Source of the DNA: Rhodoferax sp.
Lineage (GTDB): Bacteria; Pseudomonadota; Gammaproteobacteria; Burkholderiales; Burkholderiaceae_C
DNA: 64,000 bases
Reading direction: 5' to 3'
NCBI RefSeq assembly: GCF_012927445.1
Contig: NZ_JABBPD010000003.1
Coordinates: 183,973 to 247,972 of the forward strand
The position numbers and the translations under genes were made by a program. Positions within the stretch are counted from its first letter, which is position 1, and each line of letters begins with the position of its first letter. The notes beneath the pieces are model-generated. The model was not told the DNA's origin and did no database searches. It worked only from the letters and a program-made list of their open reading frames with translations. Below are positions 18,241 to 59,564 of this stretch, piece after piece.

Positions 18241-18822
18241 ATGGCGCACGAAAGCATTCGAATTATTCACGACGAGCACGCTGCGTTGGCGGCGATGTTG
18301 CGTTCCATTGGCATGATGGTTGAACGTGGTCCTGGCAACGAGCCTGAAAGTTTTTTTGATGTATTGCGGGCCATGCTGTTCTACATTGACGAGTTTCCGG
18401 AACGGCTGCATCACCCCAAGGAATCAGAACTGCTCTTCCCCCGCGTCGCCCGATTGGCGCCCGAGACCACGGAGGCCATTGACCGACTGGAAAATGACCA
18501 TGTCAAGGGCGAATCGGCAGTGCGCGAGTTACAGCATTTGTTGTTGGCGTGGGAGTTGGTTGGTGAATCCAGACGTGTCGCTTTTGAGAAAGCGGCAAAA
18601 CAGTATCTTGCTTTTTATCTGGAACACATGCGGCTGGAAGAGACCGTGATTCTGCCCGCAGCCCAAAAGGTATTGAGCGACGCCGACTGGAAAGAACTCG
18701 ATGCCGCATTTGCCACCAATTGCGATCCCCTCACCGGCAAGTACCCGCGTGACCCGGTGTACGACCGGCTGTTCACGCGTATTGTGTCGCGCGCGCCCGC
18801 ACCAATTGGCTTGGGGGATTAA
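18241..18822 (+). CDS. Hemerythrin-domain protein
   Basis: IRIIHDEHAALAAML...ERLHHPKESELLFPRV...YLEHMRLEETVILP. Confidence 0.85.
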   Translation: MAHESIRIIHDEHAALAAMLRSIGMMVERGPGNEPESFFDVLRAMLFYIDEFPERLHHPKESELLFPRVARLAPETTEAIDRLENDHVKGESAVRELQHLLLAWELVGESRRVAFEKAAKQYLAFYLEHMRLEETVILPAAQKVLSDADWKELDAAFATNCDPLTGKYPRDPVYDRLFTRIVSRAPAPIGLGD

Positions 18823-18832
18823 CCCCCCAATA

Positions 18833-18950
18833 TCAGACGCGTTCGATGATCACCGCAATGCCTTGGCCGACGCCAATGCACATGGTGCACAGCGCGTAGC
18901 GGCCGCCAATGCGGTGCAATTGATTGATGGCCGTCGTTACCTGCGCCTGC
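18833..18950 (-). pseudogene. C-terminal remnant of a thiolase (beta-ketoadipyl-CoA thiolase-like)
   Basis: Minus strand AQVTTAINQLHRIGGRYALCTMCIGVGQGIAVIIERV*; the rest of the enzyme is missing. Confidence 0.8.
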
Positions 18951-18959
18951 ACCTCTCGC

Positions 18960-19677
18960 CCCAGCAGTGCAGTGGGCGACTCAGGCTGGAGAAAGCCATC
19001 AGCATCAGTGCCGAGTGCATTTACCAACACGCCTACCAAGACAAGGCGACAGGCGGGGACTTGGTGAGTTACCTGCGCTGTCAAAAGGTACGCCGCAAAC
19101 GCTACGCCAGTGGCCAGGAGCGCCGAGGCGTGCTGAAGAATCGCATCGGTATTGAGCAGCGTCCCACCGTGGTGGACAAACGCAGCCGTATTGGCGACTG
19201 GGAGGGGGACACCGTCATTGGCAAAGGGCACCAGGGTGTGCTGGTCACGCTGGTGGGGCGAAAATCTCGCTATACCCTGGCCTGCCAGTTGGACTCGCGC
19301 CACAGCGCGAAGGTCACACCGGCCATCATCGCGCTGCTACGGCCCCACAAGGCCAAGTGCAAGACCTTGACCTTTGACAATGGCAAAGAGTTCTCCGAGC
19401 ATGAATTCATCGCCCAGTGCTTGAAGGCCCGGGTGTACTTTGCGCATCCGTACTGCTCCTGGGAGCATGGGCTCAATGAAAACCACAATGGCTTGTTGCG
19501 CCAGTTCTTTCCCAAGCAGACCAACCTGCTCAAGGTGAGCCAGGATGAGGTCAATGAGGCGGTGTATCGGCTTAACCACCGACCTCGCAAGTGCCTGGGC
19601 TATCGCACCCCGCATGAGGTCTTTTATCGCTTGAAAATGACTCCGCTTAAACTTCCTACTGATGCACTTTGTAGTTG
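18960..19677 (+). mobile_element. 5'-truncated IS30-family transposase
   Basis: AISISAECIYQHAYQDK...IGDWEGDTVIGKGHQGVLVTLVGRKSRYTLA...TFDNGKEFSEHEFIAQCL...NGLLRQFFPK...NHRPRKCLGYRTPHEVF; N-terminal HTH absent. Confidence 0.88.
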
Positions 19678-19685
19678 AATCTGCG

Positions 19686-20308: not shown

Positions 20309-20544
20309 AAGCGGTCAGTCGAAGTGCTCCTCCAATTTCAAAATTGGCTTGTTTGAAGCCTAGAATCAAAAAAGAACAATCTGCGGGGTTTGTCGAAATT
20401 TTTATATCTGCAAATAATCCGAGAAAACCACTAAAACCAAGGCTAAAAGCCACTCTCAGGGGAAATTCATGACCAGTATATGGAGCAAGGTTCAGTATAT
20501 ATAGCATGTTTTTCTCTATACATTACGTTAGAACTGGAGAAATA

Positions 20545-20967
20545 ATGCACTGTGATCTTGTAGTTAGTACATCAATCGCTCCAAAAACTATATCAGCTAC
20601 AAATATTGATGATTTCAAAGCCCAACTTGAAGCGTTGTTAATAGAATCAAAGCAACAAAGGGGAATTGTGTACATATGGAAAACACAATCTGATATACCA
20701 AGATTAAAAGGGAAAAACCCCATTATTTATATCGGGAAAGCTGATGGAAGCTTGTACGATCGCTATATAAATAAAATTACCCATGAGGCAAATGAGTACT
20801 GGGACAGGTACCATCAAATAATATCCGCCTACGGAAATATATATATAGAAATATTTGAGTCAAAAGATCCAAAAAAAACTGAAAACAATTTCTTATACCA
20901 ATATCATCAGCAATTTATGGAGTTGCCGCCTATCAATTTGCAAAGTTACAAATATGGCCTGCTCTAA
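20545..20967 (+). CDS. GIY-YIG nuclease-like protein, candidate gene-cassette ORF
   Basis: RGIVYIWKT...NPIIYIGKADGSLYDRYINKI...ENNFLYQYHQQFMELPPIN; AT-rich; 18 nt after a GTTAGAA core and ends inside an attC-like site. Confidence 0.6.
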   Translation: MHCDLVVSTSIAPKTISATNIDDFKAQLEALLIESKQQRGIVYIWKTQSDIPRLKGKNPIIYIGKADGSLYDRYINKITHEANEYWDRYHQIISAYGNIYIEIFESKDPKKTENNFLYQYHQQFMELPPINLQSYKYGLL

Positions 20968-21019
20968 CCCATCATTCAAGCGGGACGCCTAACGGCGCCC
21001 CTTAATTCAAACGTTAACG
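20963..21019. other. Integron attC-like recombination site
   Basis: TCTAACCCATCATTCAAGCGGGACGCCTAACGGCGCCCCTTAATTCAAACGTTAACG: R''/L''/L'/R' layout, inverted ATTCAAG/CTTAAT halves with one unpaired base. Confidence 0.7.
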
Positions 21020-21286: not shown

Positions 21287-21640
21287 ATGAATCGCCGCCT
21301 TTGCATTCACACACTCATGTCAGTCACGGTCTGTGCATTGCTACCTAGTGCAACATTTTTTGCTGAACGGCAACCGCTTGCAGCCTCATTGCCACGCACC
21401 TCCAACGAACCCACTGAACCGGGCGCGCAAGAAATTGCGCCAGACCCGTTGTACGCCCAAGCAGTGGCTGTGGTGATGATCAATCAAAAGGCCAGTATTG
21501 GCCTGGTTCAGCGCCACCTCAAGTTGGGCTACAACCATGCAGCCCGCTTGCTTGAGGCGATGGAACAAGCCGGACTGATTGGTTCAAGGTATGTGAATGG
21601 TTATCGCCAAATTTTGGACTGTGGCATCCGGGAAACTTAA
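21287..21640 (+). CDS. Orphan FtsK gamma-domain-like protein with N-terminal hydrophobic segment
   Basis: DPLYAQAVAVVMINQKASIGLVQRHLKLGYNHAARLLEAMEQAGLIGS matches the FtsK gamma (KOPS-reading) winged-helix pattern. Confidence 0.7.
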   Translation: MNRRLCIHTLMSVTVCALLPSATFFAERQPLAASLPRTSNEPTEPGAQEIAPDPLYAQAVAVVMINQKASIGLVQRHLKLGYNHAARLLEAMEQAGLIGSRYVNGYRQILDCGIRET

Positions 21641-52331: not shown

Positions 52332-52364
52332 GTAAAATTACAAACTGTGCTCATCTGAGCACAT

Positions 52365-52456
52365 TCGCTAGGGGTGTTGCCCGGCTTCTTATGGAGGCCT
52401 GGCGACTGAGAAAGTCCCTTTGAACCTGATTGAGGTAATCCTCGCGCAGGGAAGCA
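52365..52456 (+). ncRNA. TPP riboswitch (THI element)
   Basis: GCTAGGGGTGTTGCCC...CTGAGAAAGTCCCTTTGAACCTGATTGAGGTAATCCTCGCGCAGGGAAGC. Confidence 0.93.
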
Positions 52457-52549
52457 TGTCCGGTTTGGGGGCGCCGCCGAATTTTTTGGTAGCGCATCTC
52501 CCCGTCCAGATCAAGCCCACCTGCCAACTCTTTTGCTTGGAGCAAATGG

Positions 52550-59242: not shown

Positions 59243-59284
59243 GTAATTCCCAAATTAGTAAGACATGGGCCAGACAGGCGACAG

Positions 59285-59368
59285 AGGAAGAAGCTTCCCT
59301 CCGCTGGAACGACCCAGATCAGGTTCAAAGAGTATGTCTCAGTCACCCGAAGGCGACACCTCTAGCAA
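59285..59368 (-). ncRNA. TPP riboswitch (THI element) upstream of thiM
   Basis: Minus strand CTAGAGGTGTCGCCTTCGGGTGACTGAGACATACTCTTTGAACCTGATCTGGGTCGTTCCAGCGGAGGGAAGCTT. Confidence 0.93.
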
Positions 59369-59488
59369 TTGTGAATTATCCGGGAATTCATGTCTGAACA
59401 AATGATTGATTTTTGGCAAGCTTTTGATACGAATCGTTATAAGCGGGCAAAGAGAGCGAAACAAAGCACGCTATAATTTAAAGCTTAT

Positions 59489-59564
59489 TCCTCGATAGCT
59501 CAGTTGGTAGAGCGCCGGACTGTTAATCCGTAGGTCCCTGGTTCGAGCCCAGGTCGAGGAGCCA
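59489..59564 (+). tRNA. tRNA-Asn(GTT)
   Basis: TCCTCGATAGCTCAGTTGGTAGAGCGCCGGACTGTTAATCCGTAGGTCCCTGGTTCGAGCCCAGGTCGAGGAGCCA; anticodon GTT, encoded CCA. Confidence 0.97.

Follow-up and report, generated by a model that had tools for sequence, protein, structure and literature searches.

A GIY-YIG-type gene cassette behind an integrase-less attI site in Rhodoferax, and the distribution of such sites in the genus and family

A stretch of 64,000 nucleotides (64 kb) of Rhodoferax sp. DNA, hereafter the window, carries on its forward strand a gene cassette of 486 bp (20528-21013), delimited by two G|TT points and preceded by a 224-bp element that holds an attI site without an integrase gene (20311-20534). 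The attI crossover core GTTAGAA lies at 20527-20533, its recombination point G20527|T20528 being placed by the sequence and by a drop in conservation across 60 copies of the site, and GGAG precedes the ATG (20545) of an open reading frame that encodes a 140-aa protein (20545-20967). The stop codon of this frame (20965-20967) falls within the R'' box (CTCTAAC, 20962-20968) of an attC site at 20962-21019, which continues through L'', a TAAC loop and L', the mirror image of L'', to the R' junction GTTAACG (21013-21019). The letters and positions of the core, the start codon, the embedded stop and the paired boxes agree with an earlier interpretation made from the letters alone (the sequence-only reading). 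In the surroundings, an IS30-like transposase ORF (18701-19678; rve domain, sub-threshold) overlaps the end of a neighbouring gene and lies about 600 bp from the attI element, and on the other side a 117-aa protein (21287-21640) combines an N-terminal hydrophobic stretch with a lone FtsK gamma (DNA-reading) domain and has a homologue of similar length in another genome (G021). Further away, the window holds two TPP riboswitches (52360-52469, forward strand; 59279-59373, reverse strand) and, at 59489 and 59618, two tRNA-Asn genes that score identically.

The attC site was evaluated with a covariance model (R1) whose 15 training sites came from class 1 integrons, from other orders and from a same-genus relative of the window genome; the relative contributed two of them, and the window site was excluded. 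In the window the site at 20962-21019 scored 40.0 bits (E = 4.8e-7) and the second-best match 11.6 bits (E = 1.1), leaving one attC; in the whole 3.9-Mb genome (G000) it was again the sole confident match (E = 3e-5, runner-up 17 bits). Rfam at gathering thresholds reported no attC. The attC is real and stands far above chance, and the same model confirms what the sequence-only reading had claimed. Integron recombination cuts between G and TT, which assigns the right-hand bases of the 3' core to the flank. The R' box GTTAACG, which had been taken as a sign of decay, looks odd because it spans the crossover point, and its last six bases (TTAACG, 21014-21019) are the non-cassette beginning of the right flank. 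In the excised circle, the joined ends restore an R' box GTTAGAA (from 20527-20533) that pairs at six of seven positions with R'' CTCTAAC. The bottom strand of this circular site, folded as ssDNA, gives a canonical attC hairpin (-10.4 kcal/mol, z -2.75) with a 6-bp R stem, an L arm and extrahelical bases on one side only; the fold of the chromosomal junction lacks the R stem (-8.9 kcal/mol, z -2.02). At another orphan attI, that is, one without an integrase (G036b), the attC is followed by GTTAACGACTG. Judged by these features, the DNA between the two G|TT points is a genuine mobile cassette of the integron type, for which excision and integration by the integrase IntI are predicted.

The 140-aa protein shows the motifs GIVYIW and IIYIGK followed by R73, E113 and PPIN131, and it had been described as GIY-YIG-like. 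Searched alone it had no usable family match in Pfam, NCBIfam, PHROGs or PADLOC, and a protein search of 60 relatives and of the genome_contigs and viral_contigs collections returned only itself. A tblastn search of plasmids recovered one relative (32% identity, E 1e-9) on the Vibrio parahaemolyticus plasmid pVPTW011, and a profile made of these two sequences found ten further relatives in GTDB genomes and, in addition, one on a viral contig. Across the 12 family members (alignment A3), Y43, Y62, G64, R73, E113 and N131 are invariant, and the catalytic GIY/YIG pattern of Tyr, Arg, Glu and Asn is present in the family. The Pfam profile PF01541 matches four relatives below its gathering score and leaves the window protein itself unmatched. 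An AlphaFold model of the protein has a pLDDT of 86.4 and a pTM of 0.80, and in a fold search of the PDB the GIY-YIG restriction enzyme Hpy188I takes the top two places with weak scores (E 0.021, TM 0.37), and T4 EndoII comes lower in the same list; a sequence-profile search of the PDB found nothing. Taken together, the motif conservation, the sub-threshold Pfam matches and the weak fold matches make it likely that the protein belongs to the GIY-YIG superfamily, with nuclease activity as a prediction, and it is our guess that this candidate nuclease acts on foreign DNA; a defence role, raised in the sequence-only reading, stays a candidate function, with no match in PADLOC.

Relatives of the gene also occur in cassettes. 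The Vibrio relative (L013) belongs to an array in which a VCR-type attC, up to 124 nt long, recurs about 13 times, and the gene's stop codon leads into an attC-like sequence in the relatives from Pseudomonas borbori, Halomonas, Nitrincola, Idiomarina and a Balneolales MAG, some of these calls lying below the R1 threshold and being judged by eye. An attC context was found at L013, L053, L054, L055, L057 and L060, and none was seen at L052, L056, L059, L061 and L063. In at least four relatives a partner ORF of 116-120 aa lies upstream of the GIY-YIG gene, adjacent to it or slightly overlapping, giving two-gene cassettes (L054:3564-3926, L055:3537-3887, L053:1383-1736 and L060:3537-3887); the window and Vibrio cassettes have no such ORF. 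Two examples of the partner share 35% identity, three have no Pfam match and two no PADLOC match, and it is possibly an operon partner or an antidote of the GIY-YIG gene. Two observations on the arrays may be added: beside its GIY-YIG relative, the P. borbori array encodes an AbiTii-domain protein (L054:2430-3449), and the Idiomarina array holds a second GIY-YIG-type protein with a LEM-3-like domain (L060:1992-2795).

In the flank preceding the cassette, BLAST revealed that 20440-20531, which ends in the GTTAG of the core, is 76% identical to the DNA directly beside an intact intI in a sister species (G033), with further matches in G023 and G026. The attI proper (20383-20534), ending in the crossover core, is homologous to the intI-adjacent attI of these three genomes, and an alignment of five copies (A4) displays the intI start-codon region, a shared block and the core. 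By this homology the roughly 150 bp upstream of the cassette is a true attI, with a putative docking function. The larger element was delimited by its 72% identity (20310-20531) to a second place in G000 on contig 8 (C8), where three attC-like sites, each weak by itself, lie downstream, and by the sharp left limit of conservation seen in 24 orphan copies. The attI sequence model R2 scored the window site at 110.8 bits (E 1.2e-31 in G000), the model being partly trained on the window and C8 copies, so that its weaker family matches need care. No intI remnant was found beside the window attI and no IntI in the whole of G000 reaches the family cut-off; the earlier remark that the window has no integrase is correct and extends to the genome, and an integron-type cassette without an integrase, carrying a GIY-YIG-like gene, is what the attC, the protein motifs and this absence support. 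Of the components of a complete integron, attI is present by homology and an adjacent intI is absent, and the window has one attC where an orphan cassette array (CALIN) is counted from at least two. The description of the cassette as stranded and CALIN-like holds for the missing integrase and is not the whole story, since the cassette sits at an attI of a dispersed family. Within the element, a -10-like hexamer (TAGAAT, 20361-20366, forward strand) is a possible cassette promoter: TAGAAT or TATAGT lies 20-24 nt before the attI block in 32 of 43 orphans as against 1 of 830 flank windows, a motif picked after seeing the data and a count to which shared descent contributes. We would guess that the short conserved upstream block with this hexamer is the cassette promoter (Pc), which would make the element a module for both expression and docking.

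Copies of this attI are numerous. R2 found it in 47 of 81 genomes of the genus, with up to six copies each, and in the family in 83 of 301 genomes and 53 of 141 genera, with up to eight copies each; there were no matches in plasmids. G000 itself has three (C7, C8 and C3), the third of which precedes an FRG-domain gene (L102:3849-5549) that matches the PADLOC candidate defence family PDC-S15, and no clear attC was found there. Among the 119 best-scoring family copies, 15 adjoin intI and 104 have none within 400 bp, counts to be read knowing that draft genomes can hide intI at contig ends and that weak R2 matches may include errors; no IntI at E<=1e-60 occurs in 30 of the 56 genomes concerned. 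Orphan copies also occur in closed or nearly closed genomes (G010, G036, G685, G693 and G766), and since closed ones (G010, G036, G685) are among them, the orphans are not a product of broken assembly. The attC matches follow the copies mostly in one sense: around the 46 genus copies inspected, with equal lengths searched on either side, 39 of 41 lie downstream on the same strand, two upstream and none on the opposite strand, and around 20 copies from other genera, with 15 loci covered, 30 of 32 lie downstream on the same strand and two on the opposite one. In 60 copies with a clear core, conservation is 1.43 bits per position from -8 to +3 but 0.04 bits from +9 to +40: the copies behave like attI, common up to the crossover and different beyond it. 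Two recurrent sequences start at or next to the crossover core, GTTGAACTAAACCGCTG... in G010a, G010b, G441c and G455a and GTTCCGGTCGACGGCAAAAACAGTGGCGC... in G026i, G441b and G428b; they may be insertion sequences with attI as their target, or cassettes that these genomes share.

We consider it probable that the window locus arose when IntI inserted the GIY-YIG cassette at G20527|T20528 by attI x attC recombination, into a site of a dispersed family of integrase-less attI elements of about 150-220 bp. These elements would derive from integrons that lost intI by deletion, and they now stand at many positions in the chromosomes of the genus and family, a genome often having several. An IntI acting in trans, either encoded at another place in the genome or since lost, as in G000, would have loaded the sites, which may still be loadable today. 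Two genomes (G474 and G696) carry an intact intI with its own attI and cassettes together with an orphan attI elsewhere that has its own attC, an arrangement that, as far as gene content goes, permits loading in trans. This attI family is not necessarily a substrate for a given genome's IntI.

The most serious alternative is ordinary decay in place, whereby each orphan is the remnant of a complete integron at that very locus, several ancient integrons having existed per genome and attI never having dispersed. Inactivation of intI is known from Xanthomonas (PMC12444791), and at many copies here graded intI remnants of 22 to about 300 aa persist. Four of the 66 inspected copies have a full-length intI, others have 5' pieces of it, and 43 have no tblastn remnant within 2.6 kb, a few of these (G677a, G766a and G631a) looking by eye like decayed intI; intI pieces, or an assignment to the intI type, mark 23 of the 66, and ordinary integron decay therefore accounts for part of the set. 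The motif at the left end of the orphans is also found just behind intI in a complete integron (G023), and one locus, that behind a biotin-carboxyl-carrier gene, is occupied by a complete integron in G033 and by an orphan in G460, which indicates that deletion in place probably occurs. Against decay as the general account, a block of about 85 bp lying upstream (TTGAAGCCTAGAATCGA...GCGGGGTTTG, also given as TTGAAGCCTAGAATC...GCGGGGTTTG) is common to the genus orphans and absent from intI-bearing copies, pointing to one common deletion, and yet the outer flanks of these orphans are almost all unrelated. In the tree, moreover, copies of one genome often fall in different clades; the window attI is sister to a copy in G467 (88%, support 100/98) and the three G000 copies are placed separately. 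We doubt that decay in place accounts for the family as a whole. A LexA-type box (CTG-N10-CAG) is found in 10 of 19 intI-type copies, and the 27 genus orphans compared all lack it at the corresponding position; its loss as a rule for all orphans was rejected, for it holds only for the genus class and orphans of the G693 and G711 types in other genera keep the box. As to how dispersal of the attI elements came about, neither terminal inverted repeats around them nor a transposase accounting for it was found, the idea that they moved as cassettes was dropped because their left end has no G|TT, and a comparison of flanking DNA and proteins in relatives gave no clean empty site.

Such multiplicity and the discrete left boundary, together with the fact that dispersal is not a known integron activity, could instead suggest that the 150-220 bp sequence has no relation to integrons, being a dispersed repeat or a non-autonomous transposon that lies beside cassettes by accident. 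This is improbable: in complete integrons about 25 bp separate the sequence from the intI start, its conservation ends at the crossover core, and cassettes stand behind it in one orientation only. Insertion at a secondary genomic site of the attG type, a known process (Loot et al. 2024, cited in PMC12901181), had been our initial guess, given that no integrase is nearby and G|TT occurs at both ends; it was abandoned once BLAST showed that 92-224 bp of the left flank share ancestry with the attI beside intI in sister species and with further attI copies, and we now hold it to be very improbable. Chance resemblance without any cassette, which the single attC might invite, has a negligible probability in view of the independently trained R1 match, the attI in front and the cassette-borne homologues elsewhere.

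Integrons are conceived as one integrase, one attI and one array. If attI has multiplied without the integrase, a chromosome could keep cassettes, and perhaps express them, at many separate addresses. Where CALINs come from would then become directly testable, a link to an attI being beyond the reach of common software. Beyond the insertion at an orphan attI favoured above, we tentatively put forward the bolder idea, somewhat short of an even chance in our estimation, of a distributed integron, in which one integrase, present or transient, would serve several dispersed attI platforms, the orphan modules, probably with their promoter, would be the dispersing element, and many CALINs would be parked at orphan attI and not at random attG. 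Dispersed integrase-less platforms may explain many orphan cassette arrays, and in the part of the literature that was covered we found no earlier description of the multi-copy form.

Among known systems, the GIY-YIG superfamily (Hpy188I, T4 EndoII) shares with the window protein its GIY and YIG motifs and the Arg, Glu and Asn pattern, whereas the window protein is too diverged for the Pfam model and belongs to a separate family, with about 30% identity to its relatives. A GIY-YIG gene carried as a cassette, as here, is also represented by orf6 of a class 4-like integron of Aeromonas (PMC10609294). At the level of the locus, CALINs likewise consist of attC-bearing cassettes without intI, and the window differs in having one attC only and a recognisable attI in front. 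IntegronFinder 2 seeks attI only in class 1 integrons and by default reports CALINs from two attC (PMC9024848), and thus a single attC behind an attI not of class 1 would be missed. The sedentary chromosomal integrons of Xanthomonas with an inactivated intI have lost that gene and kept attI and cassettes, as at the window locus, with CALINs at fixed other loci; according to the available part of that account, however, the platform occupies one locus (ilvD) and the CALINs elsewhere are not traced to an attI (PMC12444791), whereas here attI is dispersed, with several copies per genome. Insertions at attG (Loot et al. 2024, cited in PMC12901181) similarly place a cassette outside a complete integron, the difference being that the target here is a genuine relative of attI.
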